Shown piece by piece: positions 5,459 to 26,483 of a DNA stretch of 57,252 nt. The stretch's first letter is position 1. Every line of letters starts with the position of its first letter. The notes under the pieces were generated by a model, which saw only the letters and a program-made list of their open reading frames with translations, was not told the origin of the DNA and ran no database searches. This stretch comes from Deltaproteobacteria bacterium (GTDB lineage Bacteria; Myxococcota_A; Polyangia; Polyangiales; JADJMO01). The DNA lies in assembly GCA_025363655.1 (NCBI GenBank), contig JANYDK010000020.1, forward strand, positions 1 through 57,252, given 5' to 3'. The translations under genes were made by a program, and so were the position numbers.

Positions 5459-6487
5459 ATGCCCGCTCACGATTACGAAAAAGATCACGACAAAGGTCAC
5501 GACCACAGCCACCACGAAGAGCACGACCACGACCACGGTCACGATCACGACGAGTCGGGTGGCGGCGGGCACGACCACTCGCACAAGGGTCACGCGCACG
5601 TGAACCCGGCGGACGTGAGCGGTCGGGCGTTCGCCATCGCGATCGGCCTGAACCTCTCCTTCGTCATCATCGAGGCGATCTACGGCGTGCTCACGCACTC
5701 GATGGCGCTGGTCGCCGAGGCCGGCCACAACCTCAGCGACGTGCTCTCGCTCGGGCTCTCGTGGGGGGCCATGGTGTTGGCCAAGCGGACTCCCACGCAT
5801 CGGAGAACCTACGGGTTCCGGGGCACGACGATTTTGGCCTCGCTCGCCAACGCGTTGGTGTTGCTCTTCGTCGTCGGCGCCATCGCTTGGGAGTCGGTGC
5901 GACGTTTCGCGGAACCGACCCCCGTCGCCGGCAAGACGGTGATGATCGTGGCCGGCATCGGCATCCTCGTGAACGCCGGCTCTGCGCTGATGTTCGTTCG
6001 CGGCAGCAAGAAGGACGTGAACGTGAAAAGCGCCCTCGTTCACCTCGCCTCGGACGCTTTGGCGTCGATCGGCGTCGTGGCGGCGGGCGGCGCGATGATG
6101 CTCACCGGATGGACCTGGCTCGACCCGGCGGTGAGCCTCGTCCTTTCGATCGTCGTGCTCGTAGGGACCTGGTCCCTGCTGCGCCAGTCACTCGATCTCA
6201 TCCTCGCGGCGGTGCCGCAGGGCATCGATCCGGCGGCGGTGCGATCTTTCCTCGTCGGGCTTCCGGGGGTCAGCGCGGTCCACGATCTGCACATCTGGGC
6301 GATGGGTACGACGGAGACGGCGCTCACTGCGCACCTCGTCATGGCCTGGCCGGAGCGTGCCCCCAAGTTCCTCGGCTCGTTGTCTCGCGAGCTCAAGGAG
6401 CGATTCGAGATTCATCACGCCACCGTCCAAATCGAGCCCTCGGAGGCCGCCGCCGACTGCGAGCAGGCGCCGGACAACGCGGTTTGA
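5459..6487 (+). CDS. czcD: cation diffusion facilitator (CzcD-like Zn/Co/Cd exporter)
   Basis: 342-residue CDF transporter. Residues 4-47 are an exceptional His/Asp-rich tract, a likely cytosolic zinc-binding segment. Six membrane helices run from about residue 55 to 215, and the two HxxxD metal-site motifs are H90-NLSD94 and H194-LASD198. The C-terminal domain (about 225-330) has the HDLHIW element of CDF cytoplasmic domains. The ATG at 5459 has GAGGAG at suitable spacing; longer in-frame starts add only a basic, non-homologous leader. A truncated czcB follows after 14 bases with its own strong ribosome-binding site, so they form one operon. The export direction (cytosol to periplasm by proton antiport) is family knowledge; the metal range is inferred. 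Confidence 0.9.
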   Translation: MPAHDYEKDHDKGHDHSHHEEHDHDHGHDHDESGGGGHDHSHKGHAHVNPADVSGRAFAIAIGLNLSFVIIEAIYGVLTHSMALVAEAGHNLSDVLSLGLSWGAMVLAKRTPTHRRTYGFRGTTILASLANALVLLFVVGAIAWESVRRFAEPTPVAGKTVMIVAGIGILVNAGSALMFVRGSKKDVNVKSALVHLASDALASIGVVAAGGAMMLTGWTWLDPAVSLVLSIVVLVGTWSLLRQSLDLILAAVPQGIDPAAVRSFLVGLPGVSAVHDLHIWAMGTTETALTAHLVMAWPERAPKFLGSLSRELKERFEIHHATVQIEPSEAAADCEQAPDNAV

Positions 6488-6501
6488 GCGGAGGAGGCCA
6501 T

Positions 6502-7209
6502 ATGAAGACCGATCCGATACGTGCGGGCTCGCTGGCTGTACTGCTCGGCGTGCTCGGCGTGCTCGGCGTGCTCAGCTTGCTGGGCTGCCCGCGCGCCGAC
6601 CGCGCGACCGAGGGCGAGAAGCCAGCCGCCTCGAACAGCGCACACGTCGACGAGGCCGAGCACAGCGGCATCGTTCGAAGAATCAAGCTCCCCGAGGGCG
6701 TCATCGCCGACGCGCACATCCGCACCGAGCCGGTCACGGCGCGACGATTGGCGGCGGTCTTGTCGCTGCCGGGCGAAGTCTCGGTCAACCCCGATCGCAG
6801 CTCGCGCGTGTCGTCGCCGATCGCCGGACGCCTCGAGCGCGTCGACTTCAAGGAAGGCGCCTTCGTCAAGAAGGGCGCCGTTCTCGCCGTCGTGCGCATC
6901 CCCGAGCTCGGCAAGCTGCGCGGCGCGTACCTCGAAGCCGTGGCGCGGGCGAAGGCAGCGAAGGTCACCGAGCAGCGAGAAGCCGATCTGCTCTCGCAAC
7001 ACGCGACGTCGGTGCGGGAGTATCTCGAAGCCAAGACGGCCGCCGAAACGACGCAAGCCGAAGTCGATGGGCTCGGCGCGCAGCTGGCGGCGCTCGGTGG
7101 CGGCGCGGGGGGAGGCCCTGGTCTCTTGTCGTTGCAGGCGCTCCTCGACGGCTACGTGGTGAATCGTCACGCCGTCGTCGGACAACCGGTCACGGCCGAT
7201 CAGGCTCTT
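6502..7209 (+). pseudogene. czcB: 3'-truncated CzcB-like membrane fusion protein
   Basis: Starts at ATG with a GGAGGA site 14 bases after czcD. It has a lipoprotein signal (SLLGC lipobox near residue 30), a short linker, then the barrel-sandwich beginning of an RND membrane-fusion protein (RVSSPIAGRLERV, GAFVKKGAVLAVV), a coiled-coil hairpin rich in Ala/Glu, and the second lipoyl half ending at VVGQPVTADQAL. There the homology stops dead: the next codons read Arg/Gly-rich nonsense for about 1.8 kb, while CzcA homology begins in another frame. Roughly the last 150 residues of a normal CzcB are missing. Either a genuine deletion or an assembly join explains it. Confidence 0.8.
6543..6569. repeat. 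9-bp tandem repeat in the czcB signal peptide
   Basis: Three perfect copies of GCTCGGCGT, continuing partly into a fourth, encode the GVLGVLGVL core of the lipoprotein signal. Because the unit is a multiple of three, slippage would lengthen or shorten the hydrophobic core without a frameshift. Confidence 0.8.
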
Positions 7210-9250
7210 GCTCGGCGATCTTCGTGCCGGCGTGGTGGTGGCGGTGACGATTCCGCTCTCGCTTCTCTTCGCCATCGTGGTCATGAACGCGACCGGCGCT
7301 TCCGGCAATTTGATGAGCCTCGGCGCCCTCGACTTCGGGCTCCTCGTCGACGGCGCGGTGATCATCGTGGAAAACGCGGTGCGACGTCTCGCCGAGCGGC
7401 GCGAAGAGCTCGGGCGAGATCTCACCGGGCACGAGCGCACGGAAGTGGTGCGCGTCGCGACCATGGAAGTGCGCGCCGCGAGCGTCTTCGGCGAGGCGAT
7501 CATCGCGGTCGTCTACTTGCCGATCCTCGCGCTCGGCGGGCTCGAGGGAAAACTCTTCCGGCCGATGGCGACCACGGTGCTGCTGGCGCTCGGAGGCGCG
7601 TTCATCCTTTCCCTCACGGTCGTGCCCGTGCTCACGAGCTACCTCGTGCGGCCGAAACGCGGATCGCACGAGACCGTGCTGCTCCGTCTCGCCAAACGCG
7701 CCTACGCACCGATGTTGCGCAACGTGCTTTCGTGGAAGCGTCTGACGTTGACGCTCACGGTCTTCGCCCTCGCCGGCGCGGTGGCGCTCTTCACCAAGCT
7801 CGGCGCCGAGTTCGTGCCGCAGCTCGACGAGGGAGACTTGCTCATCGAAGCGCGACGTCTTCCCGCCGCGTCGCTCTCCGAGTCCGTCGACACCGCCCTC
7901 CGCGTCGAGCGCGCCATCCGCAAATTTCCCGAGGTGAAGTCGGTCGTCTCGCGCACCGGCTCGCCCGAGATCGCGACCGATCCGATGGGCGTCGAGGCGA
8001 GCGACATCTACATCGCACTCGAGGATCGCTCGAAGTGGCCACCCGGAGTGACCAAGGAATCGCTCGGCGTCGAGATCATGGCCGCGGTCAGCGAGGCGGT
8101 CCCCGAGATCTCCGGCGCGATGTCGCAGCCCATCGAAATGCGTACCAACGAGCTGGTGGCCGGCATTCGTTCGGACGTCGGCATTCTCGTCTACGGCACC
8201 GACCTCGACGAGCTCGCCGGGCTCGGCGAAAAAATCGCATCGGCCGTGAAAACGGTGCCCGGCGTCGTCGACGTGCGCGTCGAACAAGTGGCCGGTTTGA
8301 AGTACCTCCGCGTCACCCCCGATCGCGCCAAGCTCGCGCGCTACGGGCTCTCCGTCGCCGACGTCAACCAGCTCACGCAGACGATGGCCGTCGGCTTTCC
8401 CACCGGCGTGGTGCTCGAAGGCGAGAGGCGCTTCGGTATCGTCGTGAAGACCAAGCACGACTTCAAAGACGATCTCGACGCGTTGCTCGGACTCCCTCTG
8501 AAATCGGTCACCGGGCAAATCGTGCCCCTCGGCGACGTCGCCGCACTCGACTTCGTCGACGGTCCGGCCGAAATCGCGCGCTCGAGTCAATCACGTCGCC
8601 TGACGGTGGAGTTCAACGTCTCCGGCCGCGACCTCGTCTCCGTCGTCCGCGACAGCCAAAACGCCGTGCAACGCGCGCTGACCTTGCCGGTCGGCTATCG
8701 CCTCGAGTGGGGTGGCGAGTTCGAGCACTACCTCGAAGCGAAAAATCGCCTGCTTTTCGTCGTCCCCATCGCGTTGACGATGATCGCGCTCTTGCTCTGG
8801 ATGGCGTTTCGCTCGCTGCGCGTCGCCGCCATCATCTTGCTCAACGTGCCCTTCGCCATCGTCGGCGGCGTGGTCGGGCTGGCGGTGATGCGCGTGCCCT
8901 TCTCGATTCCCGCCGGCATCGGCTTCGTCGCGCTCTTCGGCGTCGCGGTGCTCAACGGCCTCGTGCTCGTCTCCTCCGCGCGGCACCTCGAAGAAGAAGG
9001 TAAAGAGCCCGCCGAGGCGACGCGTCAGGCAGCGCTCGGGCGTCTTCGACCTGTGCTCATGACCGCGCTCGTCGCCTCGCTCGGCTTCCTCCCGATGGCG
9101 ACCTCGACGGCGCCCGGCAGCGAAGTGCAGCGGCCACTCGCGATCGTCGTCATCGGCGGTTTGGTGAGCGCGACGTTGCTCACGCTGCTCGTGCTGCCGG
9201 TGATCCTCACGATGCTCGGCAAATCACGCCGAGGAGAGGCCTCGGCGTGA
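7205..9250 (+). pseudogene. czcA: 5'-truncated CzcA-like heavy-metal RND pump
   Basis: About 680 residues, open to the stop, that match only the C-terminal two thirds of an HME-type RND transporter of about 1,040 residues. It opens at LLGDLRAG, inside the first transmembrane bundle, and retains the HME signature DFGLLVDGAVIIVEN, the second periplasmic porter loop (about residues 200-490) and helices 7-12 ending near LPVILTMLG. The first helix, first periplasmic loop and N-terminal export determinants are absent. TTG 7208 could initiate, but a pump lacking its first third should not work. The reading frame differs from that of czcB, so no fusion protein is made. No czcC (outer-membrane partner) is present. 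Confidence 0.82.
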
Positions 9251-9278: not shown

Positions 9279-11018
9279 TCAGCGCGCGATGATCTCCGCC
9301 GGCGGCACCAAGAAGAGGACGCCGCGCACGTCGAGGTTGATCGCGCCGGGCATGCCGAGCACGTTGATGAAGGCGTTGAAGAACTGCGCGTCCTTCGTCG
9401 GCTTCACGAAGGTGTTCTTCTCCGGAATGACTTCGAAGCACACCGGCGTGCCGACGGGGATGGCGGTGAACGTGTCCTTGACGCCGTCACCGTCGGTGTC
9501 CTTGGCGGTGACCGGCGGGCAGCCGCCCTTCGGATCGCCTTCGTCCATCGCGCGGAGGGCGTGGATGAACTTGGTCGCGTCGACGCCGCCGGGGTTCGTC
9601 GGATCGTTCGACGGCTGCGCGGTGACGTCGAAGTTGGTGCCGGTGGCGAGGGCTGCGATCGCCGAGACGATCGAGTCCGAGGTGCCGGTGCCGGTGTAGC
9701 TGGCCTTGAAGATGAGGAGGCAGTTCTTGCCGTCGGCTGCGTCCGGAGCGCGCCCGACGCCGCCTTCTTCGGTGCAGCACTGACCGGCGCCGCAGCCGGG
9801 CTTGAAGGCCGACGGCGGGACGATGGCGTTGCTCGCCTCGGCGACCTTGGTCATCTGCGGGATCGGTCCGCCGCCGAAGCCGCCGCCGATGGGGATGCCG
9901 ACGCCGCGCGCGTGCGTCTTCTTGAACGCCGCGAGCAGCTCGTCCATCGAGTGCGGGTGCGGCGCCGGCTCGGTGCCGACGCGGTAGTCACCGACTTCGT
10001 GGGACTCGATGTCGGTGATTTCGACGGTGACCGGGAGCGAGCCCGGTCGGAAGTCGACGTAGCCGTAGGTGCCCGGCGCGTTCGTCTTCTTCTTGATCGC
10101 GCCGCCCGGCCAGTTCACGCCGTCGCCGGTGAGGATTTGGTACTGGCTCTCGATGGGCGATTCGGGGCCGTCGTCGCCGCTGTGGGTGGCGTATTCGTTG
10201 GTGGCCTTCTGCGCGTCGGTCACGCTCGTGGTGACCGTGTGCAGGAGGTAGAACGGCAGGTCGGCGCCCGAACCGTGACCGTCGTAGGGGAAGTCGTCGT
10301 GGCCGGCGATGGCGATGCCGACGTTGGGGATCGCCGTCTTCAGCTTCGGGATCATCGCGCTGATGTTGGCCTTCATGCCGGCGATGACGCCGCCCATCGA
10401 GCCCGTCGTGTCGAGCGAGAAGGCGACGTCGACTTGCTGGATGTTGGTGCCGAACTTGAGCACGTCGCGCGCCGGGGTCGGCGGCAGGTTGTACGGCTCG
10501 AGGAAGAAGAAGTCGCGCGTGTCGCCGGTGGCGCGGAGCTCGATCAACGTCAGGTTCGCCTGTCCCTGCTTGCCCGTCCCCGACTTGTCGACCACGTTGG
10601 CGGTGATGACCGTCGTCCCAGGTTTTCCACCCGGGAGCGTCGTCCCCGAGGTGAAATTGCTGCCGGAGAAGGTGCCGAACGCTGGATCGACGGTGAGCGT
10701 GGCGACGCTCGAGACGTCGGTGTCGGTGCCGTCGTCGTTGTGCACCGAGACGGTGTACTTCTGCGTCCCAGCGACGGGCTTTCCGCTCGCCGTGTCGATG
10801 GCAATGACCGCGTTCGACGGCGTGATGGTCACTTGGCTGACGATGCCGATGTCCGGTCCCGGGCCCGCGTCGTCGAGGTGGAGGCCTCCGTCATCGCCGG
10901 GCGTTCCGGTGTCGAGCGAAGGCGCCTCGCCGCCCTTGTCGGCGTTGGAAGCTCCGCACGCCATGGCGAGCGGAGTGACGAGAAGCGCGAGGCACGAGCG
11001 AAGCCGAACGTTAAGCAT
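9279..11018 (-). CDS. von Willebrand A domain lipoprotein
   Basis: 579-residue surface lipoprotein. Signal peptide with lipobox LAMAC near residue 21, an Asp/Gly/Pro linker, an Ig/Big-like beta domain (about residues 60-170), then a vWA domain starting at VDVAFSLDTTGSMGG, a DxTGS variant of the MIDAS motif. Cys residues cluster in CGAGQCC. A DTDGDGVKD segment near residue 510 looks like a thrombospondin type-3 calcium repeat. The second possible ATG (11018) is used because GGAG lies 6 nt ahead of it; starts at 11024 and beyond lack a site. It stands alone, convergent with the czc locus and divergent from the rhomboid. A role in adhesion or surface binding is only a family-level guess. Confidence 0.8.
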   Translation of the reverse strand: MLNVRLRSCLALLVTPLAMACGASNADKGGEAPSLDTGTPGDDGGLHLDDAGPGPDIGIVSQVTITPSNAVIAIDTASGKPVAGTQKYTVSVHNDDGTDTDVSSVATLTVDPAFGTFSGSNFTSGTTLPGGKPGTTVITANVVDKSGTGKQGQANLTLIELRATGDTRDFFFLEPYNLPPTPARDVLKFGTNIQQVDVAFSLDTTGSMGGVIAGMKANISAMIPKLKTAIPNVGIAIAGHDDFPYDGHGSGADLPFYLLHTVTTSVTDAQKATNEYATHSGDDGPESPIESQYQILTGDGVNWPGGAIKKKTNAPGTYGYVDFRPGSLPVTVEITDIESHEVGDYRVGTEPAPHPHSMDELLAAFKKTHARGVGIPIGGGFGGGPIPQMTKVAEASNAIVPPSAFKPGCGAGQCCTEEGGVGRAPDAADGKNCLLIFKASYTGTGTSDSIVSAIAALATGTNFDVTAQPSNDPTNPGGVDATKFIHALRAMDEGDPKGGCPPVTAKDTDGDGVKDTFTAIPVGTPVCFEVIPEKNTFVKPTKDAQFFNAFINVLGMPGAINLDVRGVLFLVPPAEIIAR

Positions 11019-11182: not shown

Positions 11183-12862
11183 GTGATCGCGCGTCTTCTT
11201 GCGGACGCCATCGACATCACCCCTGAGGGGGTGGCGTCGTCGCGTTGGTTCGGCTCGCTCGATCTTCCCCAGGTCTTCCTTCTCACCACCGCCGCCACGT
11301 TGGCCATCTTCGCCGTCCGGCTCGCCAAGACGCCGTGGGCCTTCGCCGCCGATTGGTGGGGGACGTTGGTCGTCATCGGTGGCGCGCTCGCTGCCGGTTG
11401 GTTGCTCGTGCCTGCCAGCGCCGGTCTCCTCGGCCTCGCGCTCTTCGTCGGCGTCGTCATGTTGCCCCTTCGCCTCGATCGCGCGGCGCAGCGGGCGATG
11501 CGCGCGGGCGACGACGCAAAGGCGCTGCGGCTCGCGGCCATCGCGCGCGTCCTCCATCCATTCGGGCTCGTCGGTCGTCGTCGGCGCTCGATGCTCACGC
11601 TCGGTCGTCTGGCTGCCGGCGAACCTCTCGACGACGCAGCGCTCGAGGCGCTCGGTGCCCTTCGAGATCCGCTCCTCGCCGAGCTCTATCGTGTCTACGC
11701 GCTCCACTATCGCGCCGAGACGGCGGAGTGTCGGCGAGCGCTCGCCGTCAGCGCACGTCGTCATCGCCTCTTGCGACTCGGCTTCGGTCCGGCGTGGGTG
11801 CGGACGATCGCGCAAGGCGGTACCAGCGGCGAAATCGTCGATGCCGTGCGCGAAGCCGAGCGATGGGACGCGAGCCTCGCCGATCCCGAGCGACGTGCCC
11901 TCGTCGCGCTCGACGCCTGTGCCGGTCTCGGTCACGTCGAAGCGGTTCGCGAGCTCGCGGCGCAGCTCACCGAAGGTGTCCCGCGCGGTCGCATCGCCTG
12001 GGCCGTCGCCTCCGCTCATCGTGCGAGGGGCGAACGAGAGGTCGCGGTCGAATCGGCGAGCCGTGCTCTCGAGGACGCTCACGTCCGCGAGAGGCCGTGG
12101 CTGCAGGCGCTCGCATCGCCGAGAGCGACCATCGTCGAGACCGACGAGTCGCGCGCGCTCGTCGAACGTCTCCGCGTCGAGGCGCGCGCGACGACGATGC
12201 TCGCTCCCCTCGCGGGCACCGGAAAATCAAGGGCCATTCTCACCATGGCGATCGCCGCGGTGCTCTGCCTCGTCTTCGTCGTCGTCGAAGCGACCGGCGG
12301 TTCGACCGACGAGGCGCACCTGCGTGCGTGCGGCGCGCTCCCGATTCCACTCCGTCTGGCCGACGCCTGGACCATCTTCACCTCGTCGATGCTCCACGCC
12401 GGGCTCTTGCACCTCACGTTCAACGTGCTCGCGCTCTTCGTCCTCGGCCGCTTCGTCGAGGCCTTCTACGGACGCCCTCGAATGATGGCGATCTGGCTCC
12501 TCGGCACCGTGACGAGCGCACTCACCGCCGTGGCCTTCGCGCCGCGGGACGAGATCTTGGTCGGAGCTTCGGGGGCGATCTTCGCCCTCGGCGGTGCGGT
12601 GCTGGCGGCGCTGCTCTCACGTCGCGAGCTGCGATCGACGAGGCGTGGGCGCGCCGAGCTCTATCGATTGCTCCTCGTCTTCGGCTTGCAGGTGGTGATC
12701 GACAACATGGTGCCGGCGATCAGCGGCGCAGCGCACCTCGGTGGGCTCTTCGGGGGCGCGCTCGTCGGTGCGATGCTCGCCCCGCGCCCCGCGAAAAAAG
12801 GCAAAAACGAAAGCCCCGAGAAACTCACTTCGAGCGACGCGCCGCGATCTCCCGCAGCTTGA
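11183..12862 (+). CDS. rhomboid-family intramembrane serine protease with long N-terminal domain
   Basis: About 559 residues from GTG 11183. The N-terminal part has two hydrophobic helices (about residues 28-48 and 60-95), then some 250 residues of Arg/Ala/Leu-rich soluble helices that look TPR-like. The C-terminal 190 residues are a rhomboid domain: HAGLLHLTFN loop, catalytic S463 in VGASGA and catalytic H518 in GAAHLGGLFGG. Both catalytic residues are present, so it is probably active in cleaving transmembrane substrates. The final 30 residues are Lys-rich and overlap, tail to tail, the end of the response-regulator gene by 38 bases. The substrate is unknown. Confidence 0.85.
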   Translation: MIARLLADAIDITPEGVASSRWFGSLDLPQVFLLTTAATLAIFAVRLAKTPWAFAADWWGTLVVIGGALAAGWLLVPASAGLLGLALFVGVVMLPLRLDRAAQRAMRAGDDAKALRLAAIARVLHPFGLVGRRRRSMLTLGRLAAGEPLDDAALEALGALRDPLLAELYRVYALHYRAETAECRRALAVSARRHRLLRLGFGPAWVRTIAQGGTSGEIVDAVREAERWDASLADPERRALVALDACAGLGHVEAVRELAAQLTEGVPRGRIAWAVASAHRARGEREVAVESASRALEDAHVRERPWLQALASPRATIVETDESRALVERLRVEARATTMLAPLAGTGKSRAILTMAIAAVLCLVFVVVEATGGSTDEAHLRACGALPIPLRLADAWTIFTSSMLHAGLLHLTFNVLALFVLGRFVEAFYGRPRMMAIWLLGTVTSALTAVAFAPRDEILVGASGAIFALGGAVLAALLSRRELRSTRRGRAELYRLLLVFGLQVVIDNMVPAISGAAHLGGLFGGALVGAMLAPRPAKKGKNESPEKLTSSDAPRSPAA

Positions 12863-13256
12863 GGCGACGAAACGCAGCGTCGACCTGCGGGACCAGCGCC
12901 TGCTCGTCGCCCTTGCGCGTGAAGACGCCATCGAACCCGAGCTTCGACCAGTCGGCCGCGACGGCGCCGCTGCTGCTGTAGAGATAGAAGAGCGGCACGT
13001 TGGCGTTGGGGTGGGCAGCGAGCCCTTGCCGCAGCGATTCGAGCACGGCCGTCCCGTCGAAGCCGGGCATGTGGAGATCGATGATCACGAGCCCACAACC
13101 CGACAGGTGACGAGCGGCGCCGACGGTCTGAGACGTCGTCACCACCTCGTATCCTTGCGGCTCGAGGGCGGCGCGCACGCGATCGAGGAGGAGCTCGCTG
13201 TCGTCGATGCAGAGCACACGTCGCGGCGGTGCGATCGGCGTCCGATGGGAGCTCAT
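12825..13256 (-). CDS. single-domain response regulator
   Basis: 143-residue CheY-like receiver with no output domain. The acidic pair D18-D19, phosphoacceptor D60 in IIDLHMPG, S94 in LYSSSG and K115 in FTRKGD are all in place. Its ATG overlaps the stop of the upstream CheA-like kinase (ATGA), which makes that kinase its probable phosphodonor. It is the last gene of the five-gene cassette that begins with the YfiR-like protein. With no DNA-binding or enzymatic domain, output must pass through a protein partner or a further phosphotransfer. Confidence 0.88.
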   Translation of the reverse strand: MSSHRTPIAPPRRVLCIDDSELLLDRVRAALEPQGYEVVTTSQTVGAARHLSGCGLVIIDLHMPGFDGTAVLESLRQGLAAHPNANVPLFYLYSSSGAVAADWSKLGFDGVFTRKGDEQALVPQVDAAFRRLKLREIAARRSK

Positions 13257-15484
13257 GATACGGGCCTCAGCGATTGTCGCATGTTGGCGAACGATTGGCC
13301 CGGCATCGGTGCGAGGACGAAGCGCGCGCCGCGCCCGGCCTCGGTGGTGATGGTCACCTCGTAGCCCGCCTCGTGCAGAGCTTCTCGCGCTGCGGAGAGG
13401 CCCATTCCGCGTCCGGAGAGATCGTCGGCGGTCTCGGTGGTGGAGACGCCGGGGAGGAACGCCAGCTCGGTGAGCGGAACGTCGCTCGCGACCTTGGCGC
13501 GTCGTCGCAGTCCCTCTTCACGGAGACCGCCGCCGTCGTCTTCGACCACGATCACCGGCCCGTGATCGCCGTCGGTGCATGACGCACGCACGAGGCCGGT
13601 GTCGCGCTTGCTCATCACCCGACGTTCACCGATCGACTCGATTCCATGGGCGACGGCGTTTCGCACGAGGTGCGCCATCACGCCGGGGAGGACGCGCGTC
13701 AGCCGCGGAGGAACGAGCACCGGACCGCCGCTCACCTCGAGGACCGCGCGTTTGCCGAAGGCGTCCGCCCAGACCGGTACCTTCTCGATCAACGTCCCGA
13801 TGGCATCGGAGAACGGCCGCGACGCGAGCTGGTGCGCGAGCCTACCGAGCTCGTCGTCGCGCTTCTCGGCGAGGGCGAAGAGTCGATCGACGTCGGAGCG
13901 ACGAACGGTGATTTGATCGAGAATCGCGCGGCCGATCGGCGAGGCCTCGACGAAGAGCTCGCGCGCCCGGGAGAGCTCGGCACGCGTCGCGGCGATGCCC
14001 TCGAAGAGCTCGCGGCGGACCTCGTCGAGGCGCCCGACGCGTCCGTGGCGTGAGCGAGAGCGGAGAGCATCGAGGCCGTCTTCGACCTTGCAGGCTTCGA
14101 TCGCGACGTCGCCGAGGCCGAACGCGGTCGCTTCGCCCTTCACCGTGTGCACGAGCTGGAAGAGCTCGTCGAGGACGCGCGACTCGTCGTCGGGCCGAGC
14201 CTTCGGCGGCAAGTCGTGGAGGGCCCTTTCGCCGCGATCGAGTCGCTCTTCGGCGTTGGCGAGGAACGAGGCGAAGACCTGCCCGCCGCCGGCGAGGAGC
14301 CTTCGCATGCGCGCCATCTGCTTGCCGTGCTCTTCTTCCTGCGCGCGCATCTCTTCTTCGAGGAGGCGAACTTCGGTCTCGTCGGTCGCCAGGAGCATCA
14401 TCCGCACGACGCTGCCGTCTTGCCGAATCGGCTCGAATTCGAGCCCCAAGTAGCGCTTCTCGCTCGTCCGCGGATCGCGCAGCGACACCTCTTTCGGCGC
14501 GAGCACGGCGAGCTCGGCCCACTCCTCGGGGGCCGACTCGATCGCCAGCGGCAACCAGTCGAGGAACGCCTGCAGCTCGACGTCGAGCGAAGGCGCGCCC
14601 GGATAGAGCAGGTTCTTCACGTGCCGACCGCTCGTCTGGCCGAAGACGATCGAGGCCTGCGCCGACGCTGTCTTCTCGACGATGCCGTCACGTCCGAAGA
14701 CGACGATCGCCTGCTGCATGTGATCGAAGAGCTCGCGGAGGCGTCTCGTGGCATCGGCGAGGCGACGCTCCCGTTCGACGATCGCCGCGCTCATGTCGTT
14801 GAAGACGGCGCCGAGTCGCCCGAACTCGTCGTGGGCGGTGACCGCCACCCGGACGTCGCGCTCTCCCTTTTCGATGCGCAGGGCCGCGAACATCATCCGA
14901 TCGAGCGGCCCGACGATTTGCCGACGCGCGATCGACAGGAGGATGGTGGCGGTGCCGGCGACGACCAAGAGCGAGAGCCAGAAGATGCGCTTGCGCGTGG
15001 AGACGATGGCCGCGTTCTCGTTGGCCAGTGAGAGCGAGATGACGAGGGTGCCGAGGCGCGTGCCGTCGGGTCTCATCACCGCGCGCACGATTTCCAGCCG
15101 ATCGTCGCGCAGCGTCAACGTCGGCGCATCGTCGGATGGACGCGAGGGATGGGGAGGCGTGCCGGTCGCCTCGCCAGCCGATAGGACGCGAACAGGCTCG
15201 TTTTCTCCGGTGGTCCAGACGGCGGCGTAGAGGAGGTCGTGGTTGGCGCGAAGGCTCTGCAGCTCGGTTCCCACCGCGTCGGCGTCGTGGAAGTCGAGGG
15301 GTGCGATCATCGAATCGACCATCAAATCGGCGATCGCCGTCGCCGACGCGGTCTTGGCCCCGAGGATCGACTCGCGCTCGCGACCCGTGAGCTCGACGAC
15401 GACGAGCGTGGTGACGAGCGCGAGTACGGTGATGGTGGCGAACGCGAGCTTGACGCCGACGGAGAGGAAACGAGGGCGGCTCAT
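13253..15484 (-). CDS. membrane HAMP-Hpt-HATPase sensor kinase (CheA-like)
   Basis: 743 residues. An N-terminal helix (about 10-32), a periplasmic sensor of about 130 residues resembling CHASE8-type domains of YfiN-like proteins, and a second helix (about 165-185) are followed by HAMP (to about 240) and a PAS-like region (about 245-375). A coiled coil leads to an Hpt domain with phosphoacceptor H446 in LVHTVKGEA. The CheA-type ATPase carries HLVRNAVAHGIE (N box), VEDDGGG and GRGMGLS (G boxes). It has no CheW-like SH3 domain. It follows the Cys-rich lipoprotein after 13 bases and overlaps the response-regulator gene by 4. The sensor domain assignment is by pattern only; kinase architecture is clear. 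Confidence 0.85.
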   Translation of the reverse strand: MSRPRFLSVGVKLAFATITVLALVTTLVVVELTGRERESILGAKTASATAIADLMVDSMIAPLDFHDADAVGTELQSLRANHDLLYAAVWTTGENEPVRVLSAGEATGTPPHPSRPSDDAPTLTLRDDRLEIVRAVMRPDGTRLGTLVISLSLANENAAIVSTRKRIFWLSLLVVAGTATILLSIARRQIVGPLDRMMFAALRIEKGERDVRVAVTAHDEFGRLGAVFNDMSAAIVERERRLADATRRLRELFDHMQQAIVVFGRDGIVEKTASAQASIVFGQTSGRHVKNLLYPGAPSLDVELQAFLDWLPLAIESAPEEWAELAVLAPKEVSLRDPRTSEKRYLGLEFEPIRQDGSVVRMMLLATDETEVRLLEEEMRAQEEEHGKQMARMRRLLAGGGQVFASFLANAEERLDRGERALHDLPPKARPDDESRVLDELFQLVHTVKGEATAFGLGDVAIEACKVEDGLDALRSRSRHGRVGRLDEVRRELFEGIAATRAELSRARELFVEASPIGRAILDQITVRRSDVDRLFALAEKRDDELGRLAHQLASRPFSDAIGTLIEKVPVWADAFGKRAVLEVSGGPVLVPPRLTRVLPGVMAHLVRNAVAHGIESIGERRVMSKRDTGLVRASCTDGDHGPVIVVEDDGGGLREEGLRRRAKVASDVPLTELAFLPGVSTTETADDLSGRGMGLSAAREALHEAGYEVTITTEAGRGARFVLAPMPGQSFANMRQSLRPVS

Positions 15485-15497
15485 CGCTCGGCTCGCT

Positions 15498-15962
15498 TCA
15501 CTTCAGCGCGCACTGCGATTTGCATTTGTCGGTCGCGCAGGCCACGACCGAGATGATCGCGCCTGCTTCGGGACCGGTCTGATCGGTGAGCCCGACCGAC
15601 TTCGCGCAAGGGATGCCGCAGCTGACGATGGTCTCGAAATCACCCGAGGCGAAACAGGTGTTGGCGAGCGCGCAGGCGTACGTTCCCTTGCACTTCTCGA
15701 GGGCGACACACTCGTCGATGGCTGCCTTGCAGAGGGTCTCGAGGCAGTCTTGGCAGGGCGTGCGCGCATCGACGACGACGACGTCGCCGGCTTCGGGATC
15801 GACCTCGGTCACAGGCGTCGTGTCGCGAATCGGCGTCGTGTCGGGCACGTCGACCGTCACCGGTGAGACGTCGAGACAGCCGATGCCGCCGATGCCAGCA
15901 AGCGACAGCAGCATGGCGACGGCGAAAGGGCCGCGTTTCCCGCTTCGGTACGACGTACTCAT
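15498..15962 (-). CDS. Cys-rich lipoprotein of the YfiR/TonB cassette
   Basis: 154 residues: basic N-terminus, signal helix and lipobox GIGC near residue 29, a short Thr/Asp/Pro linker, then a compact domain with about a dozen cysteines in CxxC and CxxxC spacings (CQDC, CKGTYAC, CGIPC, CKSQC), likely disulphide-bonded outside the cytoplasm. I do not recognise the family, though similar Cys-rich lipoproteins are common in myxobacteria. The ATG overlaps the TonB-receptor stop (ATGA), indicating coupled translation, and the sensor kinase begins 13 bases after its stop. Its place between receptor and kinase suggests a periplasmic link between them. Confidence 0.72.
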   Translation of the reverse strand: MSTSYRSGKRGPFAVAMLLSLAGIGGIGCLDVSPVTVDVPDTTPIRDTTPVTEVDPEAGDVVVVDARTPCQDCLETLCKAAIDECVALEKCKGTYACALANTCFASGDFETIVSCGIPCAKSVGLTDQTGPEAGAIISVVACATDKCKSQCALK

Positions 15963-18211
15963 TCCCCCACCCGCCATTCTAACCCGACCGTCGCCCGAAA
16001 ACGGTCGATCGGCGCGAGCTCTGCGGTGGGGTGGGTGGCGTCGGCGTGCTGGTAGGGGCCGACGACGTACGGCGTCTGCGAAGCGAGCGCCCAATTGAAG
16101 CTCACGCGATACATCAGTCCAGTGATGCCGGGCACGTCCCCCGACACCGTCGCCCGCAGCTCGACGAGCGGCGGCGCATACGGCGTCGGCGTGAACGCCC
16201 CATCCCACGCGCGGTTGGCTGGCCGACGACCGAGGTAATACGCGGCGAGCCCGAAGGCCGGCAGCTTGCCCGGGAGCGTATAGGCGATTCGCGCGTTGCC
16301 GAAGATCTCGGGCGCGACCGTGAGCGAGTGCGCTTCTCCGGTCGAGGTGATCGAACGTTGCGCGACGGCGCTGGTGGCATTCGCGCCGAAGCGGAGCTTC
16401 CCTTCGACGAGCGAGCCTTCGAATGCGGCATCGAAGCCGAAATTCTCGATCGACGAGACGTTGCGATATTGCGAGAAATAGAGCGCCCGCAAGGCGTCGA
16501 TTTTCCCGGCAGCGGCCGCCGCTTGGATCTCTTCCCGCGTCAGCACGTGCTGCTCGATGAGGTTCTTCCACACCGAGCGAAAGACGCCGAAGAGCAGGCG
16601 TTGCGCGCCCACCTTCTGCTCGAGCGACGCCTCGATCGATCTCACGCGCTCGGGCTCGAGGTGCTCGGCGGGCAGCACCGTCGTCGCCGAGGTGTCGCGC
16701 TCGTAGATCGAAGGTGCGCGGAACGCCTCGGCGTAGATCAGCTTGAGCGTGCTCCCGGTCCACGGATGGAGCCCGATCGCCGCGCGCGGGGAGGCGACCG
16801 GCGAGTAGGCGAGCCCGGCGTCGAGGCGCGCCCCGGCGTTGAGATCGAAGAGCTTCGACGGACGCCACACCGTCTGCAGGTACGCGCCGAGCGTCTGCTC
16901 GTGGCGCGAGATGACGTCGTCGCTGCTGACGAGATACTTCCCGGTGTCGTAGTCGCGTTGGTCGATCTTGTGCCCGCCGTAGATGGTGCGGAGGTCGACG
17001 CCGAGGAGAGACACCAGCGACGAGTCGCGCAACCAGTCGAACGACGACTGCAGGTCGAGCCCGACGAAGCGAGAGACGCCGCGGTGCTCGTTGTCGCAGG
17101 TGATGGTGCCGGGGTGGAGGCAACCGCCCGCGCGCGAGTCGATGCCGGTGCGACGGTAGTCGAAGAGATCGACGTAGAGCCGCGGCGTCACCGTCACCAC
17201 CGGCGAGAGAATTGCTCTGTATTTCACGTCGATCCACGCGTTGCGATCGATCTCGTATTGCAGCGGTTCGTTGAAGTTGGCCTCGTAGCGGGTCGTCGAA
17301 TCGAAGTACGGCGTCGCGCGCTTGTAGCTCGAGAGATGAAGCGAGACCTCGAGCCCGCCGACGATGAAGCGCGCCTGCAACGACGGGATGGTCGCGTAGT
17401 ACGACTGGTCGGCGTCGCCGCCCCAGACGCCGCTGCCGGGCCCGTCCTTCGAGAAACGCACCGGTTGTCCGTTGGCGATATCGAGCCCCAGCACCTGCGG
17501 ACCGAAGGTGAAGGTCGGTCCCTTCTGGTGATAGCCCTCGATCATCACCGTCACCTCGGCGGGGGCGCCGAAGAGCTCGAAGCGCTGCCCGAAGCCGCCC
17601 GCGAGCCGATACGACTTCCCCACCTCGGTCTCGGCGACGAAGCGCGCGCCGCCGAAGTCTTTCGCTCGTTTGGTGACGACGTTGATGACGCCGAGCATCG
17701 CGTTCGAGCCGTAGAGCACGGAGCCAGGGCCGAGGATGACCTCGAGGTGATCGACGAGCTCGAGCGGGATCGCCGCGCCGCGATCGAAGCGAGCCGCGCC
17801 GTAGAGCGGTTCGTTCACCGCGTGACCGTCGACGAGGAGGAGGAAGTGCGCGCCTTGATCGCCGCTGATCATCACGCCGCGCGCCCCGATGTCGACCGAC
17901 TTGAGCGGGTTGGAGGTGACGGCGCCGAGAGAGAGAAAGTCGATCGCCTCGTCGATCGAATGAATGCCGAAACGGCGCAAATCGTCGGCGCTGACGATGC
18001 TCGACGTCGCCGGCGCGTCGGTGCTGCGCTCCGCCGATTTCGACGCCGTCGTCACCACCGGCTCGTCGAGTAGCTCCCGGATGTCCTCGGTGTCGTCGGC
18101 GCGCACCGAGGACGTGAAGCCGATCGTCACCATGCTCATCGCGATCGTCGCGATCGTCGCCATGAGCACCGCCGACGGCCTTCGCCATGCACGTGTCGCC
18201 CTTCGCGTCAT
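15959..18211 (-). CDS. TonB-dependent outer-membrane receptor
   Basis: 750 residues. A signal peptide (basic start, hydrophobic to about residue 35) is followed by a plug domain: VVTTASKSAERSTDAPA resembles the TonB-box/plug entry, and DDLRRFGIHSIDEAIDFL, GPGSVLYGSNAMLGVINVVTK are standard plug elements. The remaining 550 residues are a beta-barrel with alternating aromatic strands and external loops, ending in an aromatic strand (RATVGLEWRVGE). The ATG overlaps the YfiR-like stop by 4 bases; a much longer in-frame extension is coding-like only because it lies over that gene. Genomic linkage to a sensor kinase rather than to an ABC importer suggests a signalling or combined role. The ligand is unknown. 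Confidence 0.85.
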   Translation of the reverse strand: MTRRATRAWRRPSAVLMATIATIAMSMVTIGFTSSVRADDTEDIRELLDEPVVTTASKSAERSTDAPATSSIVSADDLRRFGIHSIDEAIDFLSLGAVTSNPLKSVDIGARGVMISGDQGAHFLLLVDGHAVNEPLYGAARFDRGAAIPLELVDHLEVILGPGSVLYGSNAMLGVINVVTKRAKDFGGARFVAETEVGKSYRLAGGFGQRFELFGAPAEVTVMIEGYHQKGPTFTFGPQVLGLDIANGQPVRFSKDGPGSGVWGGDADQSYYATIPSLQARFIVGGLEVSLHLSSYKRATPYFDSTTRYEANFNEPLQYEIDRNAWIDVKYRAILSPVVTVTPRLYVDLFDYRRTGIDSRAGGCLHPGTITCDNEHRGVSRFVGLDLQSSFDWLRDSSLVSLLGVDLRTIYGGHKIDQRDYDTGKYLVSSDDVISRHEQTLGAYLQTVWRPSKLFDLNAGARLDAGLAYSPVASPRAAIGLHPWTGSTLKLIYAEAFRAPSIYERDTSATTVLPAEHLEPERVRSIEASLEQKVGAQRLLFGVFRSVWKNLIEQHVLTREEIQAAAAAGKIDALRALYFSQYRNVSSIENFGFDAAFEGSLVEGKLRFGANATSAVAQRSITSTGEAHSLTVAPEIFGNARIAYTLPGKLPAFGLAAYYLGRRPANRAWDGAFTPTPYAPPLVELRATVSGDVPGITGLMYRVSFNWALASQTPYVVGPYQHADATHPTAELAPIDRFRATVGLEWRVGE

Positions 18212-18795
18212 GACTCCACGACCTTCATCATCTTGAGGATCCCGACTTTGAACTCCACGTTTTGCTTCTTCGCCTGCGCGAGGTTGACGAGCAGGGTCGT
18301 CTTCCCCGAGACGAGATCGAACCCGAGCACCGCGCCCTTCGGCACGTGATCGGCGACCGCGGTGACGCTCAGCACATCGACGCCATCGAGCGCCGCGCGG
18401 ATCGCCGGGAGCGCCGAACCGAGGCCCGGCGTCAGGTAGACGATCGCCGCGCGCCTCTTCTTGCACGCCGCGGCGAGCGCCGTAGGTGACTCGTAGCCGA
18501 CGATCTCGTCGTCGTGCGGAAGCCCGGCGATCGTCGGATACGAGGCCAGCTCCTTGACCAGGGCCTTGGCCGTGCGGCCCGCGAGGTCGTCGCCACCTTT
18601 GGCAAAAATGAGAACGCGGGCGCGCTCACCGGCCCGGGCGACGAAGTGCTTGTCGTAGGCCGCGACCTTGACCGTCAGCTCGACTTGGAGCGCGATCGGC
18701 ACCGCGACGTCCTCGGCGCCGACCCCTCGCGCGAGTGCCAGCCACGGCGCCGCGAGCGCCGCGCGAAGCAGCACCCGCCGTCGCACCATCACCAT
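18208..18795 (-). CDS. YfiR/DUF4154-like periplasmic protein
   Basis: 195 residues with a twin-Arg-like, mostly Sec-type signal (RRRVLLRAALAAPWLALARGVGA). The mature part opens with VPIALQVELTVKVAAYDKHF, the hallmark start of DUF4154/YfiR proteins, and continues with alternating beta-alpha elements. YfiR in Pseudomonas is a periplasmic inhibitor of the CHASE8-HAMP-GGDEF protein YfiN. Here the partner kinase has a HAMP and a CHASE8-like sensor but a CheA-type output. First gene of the cassette; start ATG 18795 lies directly after two 10-bp tandem repeats. Its stop overlaps the TonB-receptor start. Confidence 0.75.
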   Translation of the reverse strand: MVMVRRRVLLRAALAAPWLALARGVGAEDVAVPIALQVELTVKVAAYDKHFVARAGERARVLIFAKGGDDLAGRTAKALVKELASYPTIAGLPHDDEIVGYESPTALAAACKKRRAAIVYLTPGLGSALPAIRAALDGVDVLSVTAVADHVPKGAVLGFDLVSGKTTLLVNLAQAKKQNVEFKVGILKMMKVVES

Positions 18796-18851: not shown

Positions 18852-19289
18852 ATGTCGGACCTCGAGAACACCATCGAGTCGATTGCACGGCGCTTCGCTC
18901 GTGACATCGTGTCGCAGCTCCGCAAGACGCGTCTCAACGATCTCGTCGTCGTTACCGGCGGCAAGACATCGTCGCCACACGCACCAGCGCAATCGACGCA
19001 AGCTCGGCCCGAGAAGGGCCCGGCGAAGACCAAGGGCAAGCGTGGAACGAAGGGCGGCGATCCCGTGCAGCTCGCGCTCGCCGAGGTCGTCGACGAGAGG
19101 CAGCTGACCGCGCACGAGGCGCTCATCGTCTCGATGGCGGTCCGTGGCGACGCTCGCGAAGCGATCCCCAAGCTCCTCGGCATCTCTCCCAACACCTTCA
19201 AGACGCAAGTGCGCGTGCTCTTGCGCAAGCTCGGCGAATCGAACCTCGCCGACGCCGCCAACGCCATCCTCCGTCGCGCCCTTCGATAG
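18852..19289 (+). CDS. small LuxR-type helix-turn-helix regulator
   Basis: 145 residues. The first 45 are helical, the next 40 are a Lys/Gly/Pro-rich linker, and residues about 85-145 form a GerE/LuxR-like DNA-binding domain (LTAHEALIVSMAVRGD, then LGISPNTFKTQVRVLLRKLG) with the scaffold and recognition helix in the usual places. No receiver or ligand domain is visible, so it is not a classical two-component regulator. It is transcribed divergently from the YfiR/TonB/kinase cassette with only a 56-base gap, and a TTACGT box 7 nt before its ATG suggests leaderless initiation. It is a plausible regulator of that cassette; this is inferred from position. Confidence 0.68.
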   Translation: MSDLENTIESIARRFARDIVSQLRKTRLNDLVVVTGGKTSSPHAPAQSTQARPEKGPAKTKGKRGTKGGDPVQLALAEVVDERQLTAHEALIVSMAVRGDAREAIPKLLGISPNTFKTQVRVLLRKLGESNLADAANAILRRALR

Positions 19290-19358: not shown

Positions 19359-19850
19359 ATGGACAGCGCGCGCGAGGTGCGAATCGAGCGGTGGACGGGT
19401 CGGAGCTTCTTCGTCGTGCCGTTCCCGTTTCGCGTCGACCTTCCACTCGACATGAGCGGATGCATCGTCGCCGCCCTCCGCGACACCGGTACGGCCGGGT
19501 TCCGTCGCGTGCCCGGCGGCGCCATCCTCGCGAGTGACGCCCGCTGCGGCGGCGCCATCTTCGTCGAGGTCGATCCCCGCGGTGACGATCCCCGTCTCAG
19601 CTCGATCAGCGGCGAGGTGCTCGCGCGCGCGCTCCCTCCACACGCATCACCCCTTCGCGCCGAGGTCGACGAGCTCGTCCGTTGGTCGGGTGAGCTCGGC
19701 AATCACGTCGACGCGTTCTACGTCGGGTTCTGCGCCGGCGAGGGCCCGCGACATTTCCGTCCAGCGCGGCTCTTCGCGTTGCTCGATGGGGGTGCGCTGG
19801 TCGACAAATTCGAGGTGCGCACGCGGAAGCTCTACCGCGTCGCGGTGTGA
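19359..19850 (+). CDS. conserved protein of an unrecognised family, copy 1
   Basis: 163 residues, cytoplasmic by appearance (no signal, no long hydrophobic helix). I recognise no named family. It shares a clear pattern with the gene at 25941-26438: PLDMSGCI..ALRD, PGGAI.A.DA, GAI..EVD, and LRAEVDELVRWSGELG..VDAFYV against LRAELDELVRWSMDLG..VVAIYV in the other. The alternating hydrophobic strands followed by the LRAE.DELVRW helix suggest a compact alpha/beta domain. It stands alone between the HTH gene and the first Ser/Thr kinase, all on the plus strand. The ATG at 19359 has an AAGGAG stretch close upstream. Confidence 0.65.
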   Translation: MDSAREVRIERWTGRSFFVVPFPFRVDLPLDMSGCIVAALRDTGTAGFRRVPGGAILASDARCGGAIFVEVDPRGDDPRLSSISGEVLARALPPHASPLRAEVDELVRWSGELGNHVDAFYVGFCAGEGPRHFRPARLFALLDGGALVDKFEVRTRKLYRVAV

Positions 19851-25550: not shown

Positions 25551-26483
25551 ATGCACCGCAACCGCCTCGCCGCACTCCACGCGCCGCATCAGGTCGTGCT
25601 CGCCGGCGATCGCGATTCCTTGCAGCACGTCGCAGGACTCCTTCGAGGCGCACTCGAGCAAGGCGCGCTCGAGGCTCCCGTCCTCCTCGAGCTCGATACG
25701 TCCGTCGACCCCGGTGCCTACGTCGGCAGGCTGACGACGCTCCTCGTGCGTCGCGGATCCGGCCCCATCGTCATCCATCACGACGGAGCGACGCTCGTCA
25801 TCGAGGGTGGTGACGAACAGCTCGCGATCCTCGGCAGCAACATCGCTTGGTTCGTCGCCGAAGAGTCGCCTGCCGATCCGCTCGCGCACCTCGCGCCGGC
25901 AGCCGAGATGTTACCGCCCACTTCGGGAATCGGTGAGTTTTCAGCGCTCGTGGCTGATCGGAGCCCCACGCAGCGCCGCGAAGATCTCCGTCGCGCGAGC
26001 AATTCCCGGCGGTTGCAGCTCGTAGGCGACGTAGATGGCGACCACATCATGTCCCAGGTCCATCGACCATCGCACCAGCTCGTCGAGCTCGGCGCGGAGC
26101 TTCACGCGTTGCAAAGGGAGATCGCGCGCGAGCAGCTCCACGTCTTCGACGCGCACGAGCTCGGTCGGCGACGCCGCATCGACATCGACCTCGAGGAGGA
26201 TGGCTCCGCGAAAGAGTGCGTCCGTCGCGAAGATGGCGCCACCCGGCTTGAGGACGACGCGGTGATCTTGCGCGTCGCGAAGCGCGGCGTGGATGCAGCC
26301 CGTCATGTCGAGCGGCACGTCGATGAAGAAGCGGCAGGGCGACGCGAAGAACGCGCGCTGACTCCAGTGCTCACCACGCACCGGGCGAGACGAGCTCGGC
26401 GGGGGCGGGACGCTCTCGCGGACGGAGGATGCGTTCATCAAGCTCCTACTTTTCCCCTTACGGCCATCCCCAGCGACAATTAA
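25551..26483 (+). CDS. uncharacterised ORF, 3' half antisense to another gene
   Basis: Open from ATG 25551 (TTG 25521 is also possible) to 26483. The first 130 residues read like a real protein: HAPHQVVLAGDRDSLQHVAG, LLELDTSVDPGAYVGRL, GPIVIHHDGATLVIEGGDEQLAILGSNI, then an acidic tail ending near 25938. From there the frame runs across the opposite strand of the gene at 25941-26438 and turns Arg-rich, as antisense reads of GC-rich genes do. A TGA at 25934 in the +1 frame would close the protein properly if one base were gained or lost. I do not recognise the family. The first half is fairly likely real, the rest is not. Confidence 0.35.
   Translation: MHRNRLAALHAPHQVVLAGDRDSLQHVAGLLRGALEQGALEAPVLLELDTSVDPGAYVGRLTTLLVRRGSGPIVIHHDGATLVIEGGDEQLAILGSNIAWFVAEESPADPLAHLAPAAEMLPPTSGIGEFSALVADRSPTQRREDLRRASNSRRLQLVGDVDGDHIMSQVHRPSHQLVELGAELHALQREIAREQLHVFDAHELGRRRRIDIDLEEDGSAKECVRREDGATRLEDDAVILRVAKRGVDAARHVERHVDEEAAGRREERALTPVLTTHRARRARRGRDALADGGCVHQAPTFPLTAIPSDN
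25941..26438 (-). CDS. conserved protein of an unrecognised family, copy 2
   Basis: 165 residues from ATG 26438, which has AGGAG 5 nt ahead. After a Ser/Pro-rich start of about 25 residues it follows copy 1 at 19359: FFIDVPLDMTGCIHAALRD, PGGAIFATDA, GAILLEVD, LLARDLP and LRAELDELVRWSMDLGHDVVAIYV. The two differ in the N-terminal lead and in the last 25 residues. No signal peptide or membrane helix is seen. It is on the opposite strand to all its neighbours and overlaps the 3' half of the plus-strand ORF from 25551. The paralogy is the best evidence that this strand is the coding one. Confidence 0.65.
   Translation of the reverse strand: MNASSVRESVPPPPSSSRPVRGEHWSQRAFFASPCRFFIDVPLDMTGCIHAALRDAQDHRVVLKPGGAIFATDALFRGAILLEVDVDAASPTELVRVEDVELLARDLPLQRVKLRAELDELVRWSMDLGHDVVAIYVAYELQPPGIARATEIFAALRGAPISHER

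Follow-up and report, generated by a model that had tools for sequence, protein, structure and literature searches.

What is known of signalling by TonB-dependent receptors comes mostly from the FecA/FecR/sigma factor route, and YfiR is known mainly as a brake on one cyclase. We analysed a 57,252 nt stretch of DNA from a member of the Polyangiales (contig JANYDK010000020.1, hereafter the window), in which a YfiR-like gene, a TonB-dependent receptor gene and a membrane histidine kinase gene lie close together, and which raises the question whether such a receptor controls a cytoplasmic kinase through YfiR. A conserved YfiR-receptor pair whose reading frames overlap would make this question testable, and if the pair accompanies CHASE8 sensors with several outputs, the fields of TonB signalling and YfiR would be joined.

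Gene content and layout

Five genes on the minus strand make up the cassette. The first encodes a YfiR-like periplasmic protein (DUF4154, 195 aa, 18208..18795) with a twin-Arg-like motif in its signal peptide, and is followed by the gene of a 750 aa TonB-dependent receptor with plug and barrel (15959..18211), that of a Cys-rich lipoprotein with lipobox Cys29 and 12 further cysteines (154 aa, 15498..15962), that of a membrane histidine kinase with CHASE8-like, HAMP, PAS-like, Hpt and CheA-type ATPase regions (743 aa, 13253..15484) and that of a stand-alone CheY-like receiver (143 aa, 12825..13256; Pfam Response_reg 39.4 bits). The YfiR-like/receptor, receptor/lipoprotein and kinase/receiver junctions are 4-base ATGA overlaps, and the 13 bases between the lipoprotein stop and the kinase start form the only non-overlapping junction. 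A codon-usage gene caller recovered all five genes, with slightly shifted starts for three. DUF4154, Plug, barrel, HAMP, Hpt, HATPase_c and Response_reg all scored above their Pfam cut-offs; the five genes, every junction and the families (YfiR/DUF4154, TonB receptor, Hpt with CheA-type ATPase, receiver) named in an earlier note on this DNA were confirmed. The stoichiometric expression suggested there would be a possible consequence of the overlaps.

The flanking genes (18852-19289, 19359-19850, 11183-12862 and 9279-10964) were excluded from the cassette because they had no homologue in any related locus. The first of these is a divergent LuxR-type HTH gene whose start lies 56 bases from that of the YfiR-like gene, and it is not conserved with the cassette elsewhere. 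On the other side, the receiver gene and a convergent rhomboid-protease gene (the third of these) overlap by 38 bases at their 3' ends (12825-12862). The protein of 19359-19850 matched no Pfam family and is a small paralogue of that encoded about 6 kb away at 25941-26438 (E 7.5e-32). The heavy-metal RND efflux genes at 5459-9250 look broken, the inner-membrane pump being present as its C-terminal part alone (7208-9250), which suggests a frameshift or a sequencing error.

The YfiR-like protein and the receptor

The YfiR-like protein scored 31.5 bits against Pfam DUF4154 (cut-off 24.9), and in a PDB profile search its six best matches were all YfiR (E 0.026-0.039, the next match at 0.65). Its AlphaFold model (pLDDT 91) fits the YfiR crystal structures with a TMt of about 0.75 at 14% identity, and twin-Arg-like signal peptides recur in several members of its clade. 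The receptor showed Plug and barrel matches above the Pfam cut-off and no STN signalling domain in the Pfam search; its best NCBIfam match is NF053590, the TOL_0244 family, at 94.9 bits against a cut-off of 645.

In the fold search a substrate-binding protein from Rhodothermus fitted the YfiR-like model slightly better than YfiR does, and this points to nutrient uptake with local regulation as an alternative. The receptor would then be mainly a transporter, the YfiR-like protein, whose fold is half a substrate-binding protein, would carry a ligand in the periplasm, and the kinase would sense loaded YfiR directly, the signal being the periplasmic ligand and not the state of the receptor. In line with this, TOL_0244 is upregulated sevenfold on the alkane n-C28 compared with Tween 80, and it shows 40.3% similarity to OmpS, which Alcanivorax reportedly needs in order to detect and use alkanes (PMC6304351); binding-protein-like lipoproteins also occur in the same cluster at L042/L043 and L124. 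The same literature weakly suggests a hydrophobic ligand in the distant TOL_0244 branch (PMC6304351). However, neither the cassette nor its conserved neighbours include an inner-membrane transporter or catabolic gene, and characterised YfiR proteins work through contacts with other proteins (PMC4655355). We regard uptake as a rather unlikely explanation.

The lipoprotein and the cysteines

The lipoprotein matched no Pfam family, and we found its own family to have five members (the window, L039, L086, L089 and L090), each encoded directly downstream of a receptor gene. Residue +2 is Leu or Ile throughout the family, and by the E. coli rule these residues direct a lipoprotein to the outer membrane; the protein probably serves the receptor as an accessory in the outer membrane. 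It is present in a minority of loci, and in some others unrelated small lipoproteins occupy the same position.

The earlier note had also allowed for a redox signal. On such a reading the Cys-rich lipoprotein or disulfides in YfiR would report the redox state of the envelope to the kinase. All 13 cysteines are kept in 5/5 lipoproteins, which speaks for this, but 12 conserved cysteines are more typical of structural disulfides, and the lipoprotein is absent from most loci that hold the other parts. Pseudomonas YfiR does have four cysteines with a redox-labile Cys71-Cys110 pair (PMC4655355). The cassette protein has a single one (C111), and none is conserved among 32 YfiR-like relatives. As the four Pseudomonas cysteines are missing we rejected redox sensing by YfiR; the redox proposal is thereby weakened, and in either form we consider it very improbable. 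The missing cysteines, together with the roughly 14% identity to Pseudomonas YfiR, also mean that the binding mode of the YfiR-like protein may differ.

The kinase and its receiver

Hydropathy places two membrane helices in the kinase at residues 13-31 and 167-185, with a CHASE8-like/Cache-type periplasmic domain between them. HAMP (187-236), a PAS-like region (about 258-368), a CheA P3-like hairpin (486-540) and a CheA P4-type ATPase follow. The CHASE8 match of the cassette kinase, at 47-96, reached 19.2 bits and is under the Pfam cut-off of 27. At the level of the family the assignment is clearer, since 17 of the set's 21 kinases matched CHASE8 with E<=0.01 (the best at 1.6e-6), 18 matched DgcN/YfiN and all 21 matched the NCBIfam family 'sensor histidine kinase, YfiR-like protein-associated'. 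Between the membrane helices the AlphaFold model (pLDDT 82) has two further helices, the first of them long, and five strands, as is expected of a domain of the Cache clan, to which CHASE8 belongs (PMC8846402). We take the periplasmic domain as a divergent CHASE8. The PAS-like region is modelled with a PAS-like fold, and PAS_4 was matched in 4/21 kinases.

The C-terminal half matched CheA P3-P4 in the PDB profile search (6s1k, E 3e-59; 8c5v, E 2e-51; residues 481-722 aligned), CheA P1 was also matched, and in the fold search the model matched CheA P4 with a TM of about 0.8 of the target. A CheW-like P5 is absent, the protein ending about 18 residues past the ATPase. The Hpt motif HTVKGEA holds H446, and residues 608, 649 and 691 are the first of the N, G1 and G2 boxes, respectively. 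In the receiver we found the acidic pair D18/D19 and the phospho-acceptor D60 within VIIDLHMP. The CheA-like core, the residues H446 and D60 and, for the family although not at the cut-off for the cassette kinase itself, the CHASE8-like sensor proposed earlier were all borne out. Of 20 kinases with this core, 13 are adjoined by a receiver of the same subfamily, which accompanies the core both with and without YfiR.

Conservation of the neighbourhood

Within its own 9 Mb genome the cassette kinase is the one CHASE8-like match. The genome has only two YfiR-like genes, and one of them lies three genes from this kinase. The other forms a further YfiR-TonB pair (contig C116, L011 5526-8365), again overlapping by 4 bases, beside which there is no kinase. 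A further kinase-receiver pair with this CheA-like core is found on contig C79 (L012 7232-9624); its kinase differs in the N-terminal membrane region and has no YfiR in its vicinity.

Blind searches with single proteins in 56 relatives detected YfiR and the kinase in 10 each. Of five relatives whose kinase was matched from the N-terminus on, four have it next to YfiR-TonB or close by (G032, G041, G003 and G002; not G034); the four kinases matched in the core alone (L012, L045, L046, L047) have no such neighbour. Only these single-protein searches were blind, because the profiles used for the later counts were built from YfiR-adjacent loci. With that proviso, a profile search found YfiR in 71 of 317 genomes of the class, and strong matches to both YfiR and the sensor in 27, to YfiR alone in 4, to the sensor alone in 1 and to neither in 285. 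Of 33 strong sensor matches, 25 have a YfiR at most 8 kb away; two of the remaining eight are in genomes with short YfiR contigs. In a receptor-seeded scan of a second collection, which shares many genomes with the first, YfiR was adjacent in 36 of 40 related receptor loci, with the 4-base overlap in 23, and in the sole exception away from a contig edge (L161) YfiR was present and had been missed by the gene caller. All adjacency counts are lower bounds since the caller misses some genes (for example YfiR of L161 and L111, the kinase of L086). A CHASE8-like kinase near a YfiR-like gene, recurring across genera, is more than chance.

Conservation of the gene order was one expectation of the earlier note, and here the association across genera stood while the order did not. 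Gene maps show the overlapping YfiR-TonB pair adjoining a CHASE8-type kinase in many arrangements, for instance kinase-receiver-YfiR-TonB in Sorangium, where the cultured S. cellulosum So0157-2 (L172) has the same set; no other genome showed the five genes in exactly this order. The pairs YfiR-TonB, TonB-lipoprotein and kinase-receiver are stable.

The outputs vary as well. YfiR-CHASE8 clusters occur with GGDEF (L104) and GGDEF-EAL (L185, Nevskiaceae) outputs and with HisKA kinases (L097, L127, L174, L176 and L180), in Sorangium-like genomes YfiR sits inside a Che operon, and the chemoreceptor (MCP) neighbouring at L042 shows a CHASE8 match under the cut-off. We give slightly less than even weight to the view that the YfiR-like protein and TonB receptor form a general outer-membrane input module for any CHASE8-HAMP protein, be it a CheA-like kinase, hybrid kinase, chemoreceptor or cyclase, and thus a TonB signalling route without STN, FecR and sigma factor.

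Two further arrangements were observed. The YfiR-like gene lies within Che-like operons with a chemoreceptor-sized protein, a CheA-like kinase and receivers at L042, L043, L128, L132 and L134-L138, possibly a YfiR-controlled chemosensory system. At L049 (7208-11257) the neighbours of a related kinase are a putative outer-membrane protein and a short periplasmic protein resembling binding proteins, which may be the same plan built from other parts.

Co-variation of the sensor with YfiR and the receptor

We compared distance matrices of 21 loci with the kinase core controlled, using 999 permutations. YfiR and receptor distances correlate at 0.75. The sensor co-varies with YfiR (partial r 0.31) and with the receptor (partial r 0.50), in both cases with 0/999 permutations, the receptor signal being stronger perhaps only because the receptor is longer. 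The value for YfiR against the kinase core given the sensor was 0.01. From these sequence distances, the pattern fits a sensor that is functionally tied to YfiR and the receptor, and a core that forms a cartridge of its own.

These data bear on the alternative that YfiR-TonB-lipoprotein and kinase-receiver are two independent modules, side by side and without a functional link. Each half occurs alone in this genome (on C116 and C79), the only non-overlapping junction is the one between lipoprotein and kinase, and the gene order varies between genomes. Independence would nevertheless leave the co-variation of sensor with YfiR and receptor beyond the core to be explained, and among kinases with this core only those with a CHASE8-like sensor adjoin YfiR-TonB, whereas the orphans have other N-termini. 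We find two separate modules improbable.

A proposed relay

Gene structure, families, the conserved association and the co-variation are direct observations, and with these at hand we lean, by analogy and if only by a little, towards the five genes being a trans-envelope relay on the YfiBNR plan. Our best reading by this analogy is that the TonB receptor would take the place of YfiB, and the CheA-like kinase with its own receiver that of the cyclase. A ligand would bind the receptor in the outer membrane, and its plug or its coupling to TonB would change in a way that alters how the YfiR-like protein is bound in the periplasm. Energised coupling of the receptor is possible, since the genome encodes TonB-type proteins. 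The amount of free YfiR would then set whether it occupies and restrains the CHASE8-like domain of the kinase; the likely logic, taken from YfiBNR, would be a tug-of-war for YfiR between the outer-membrane partner and the CHASE8 domain. From there the signal would pass through the second membrane helix, HAMP and PAS-like region to the CheA-like core, which would phosphorylate its own Hpt at H446, and the phosphate would move on to D60 of the adjacent receiver, which would act on a target. Every physical contact, the sign of regulation, the ligand, the phosphotransfer and the output of this relay are what we infer, and as a hypothesis the relay interpretation of the earlier note seems largely sound.

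Comparison with known systems

The earlier note knew of no named system with this set, which is half right, as NCBIfam already links families of YfiR, TonB receptor and histidine kinase. The trio NF053591 (TOL_0243, YfiR-like), NF053590 (TOL_0244, TonB receptor) and NF053592 ('HK near YfiR-like') describes the same three protein kinds, which in the cassette are likewise adjacent. These families were matched by 31/32 YfiR, 30/30 receptors and 21/21 kinases and were the best or among the best library matches, with the cassette proteins scoring far under the cut-offs (22.8/125, 94.9/645 and 57.5/194 bits for YfiR-like protein, receptor and kinase). Members of NF053592 above the cut-off occur elsewhere in the phylum, several of them adjoining YfiR/TonB, with other kinase or GGDEF outputs. 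Given these and the varied outputs, the neighbourhood is wide and partly catalogued. Our literature search for YfiR together with TonB found nothing relevant beyond a Thalassolituus proteome paper that names a family member, and the cassette is a myxobacterial variant of a neighbourhood that is in the catalogue of NCBI curators and seems never to have been studied as a unit.

With YfiBNR of P. aeruginosa the cassette shares the YfiR fold and an outer-membrane partner encoded next door, and its input resembles CHASE8-HAMP, with CHASE8 under the cut-off in the cassette kinase and matched at the level of the family. The cassette differs in having a TonB receptor instead of the OmpA-type lipoprotein YfiB, a kinase (Hpt and HATPase_c) instead of a GGDEF cyclase, and a YfiR-like protein without the four conserved cysteines. 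Like FecA-FecR-FecI it would use a TonB receptor to signal across the envelope; however, its receptor lacks STN, for which reason we rejected FecA-type signalling, and the cassette includes neither FecR nor a sigma factor. For OmpS of Alcanivorax dieselolei, also a TonB receptor, alkane sensing that sets off a chemotaxis response has been reported (PMC6304351); the cassette receptor is tied to it only through the TOL_0244 literature, and the window has no alkane link. Hpt (P1), P3-like, P4 and the CheY-like receiver recall CheA/CheY, whereas the cassette kinase is itself a membrane sensor without P5, and CheW, MCP, CheB and CheR are absent from the cassette. Compared with the NCBIfam trio, what is particular to this variant is the CheA-like Hpt-P3-P4 output paired with a stand-alone receiver, as well as the 12-Cys lipoprotein of some genomes, and we conclude that the system is conserved and interesting, and not categorically new.
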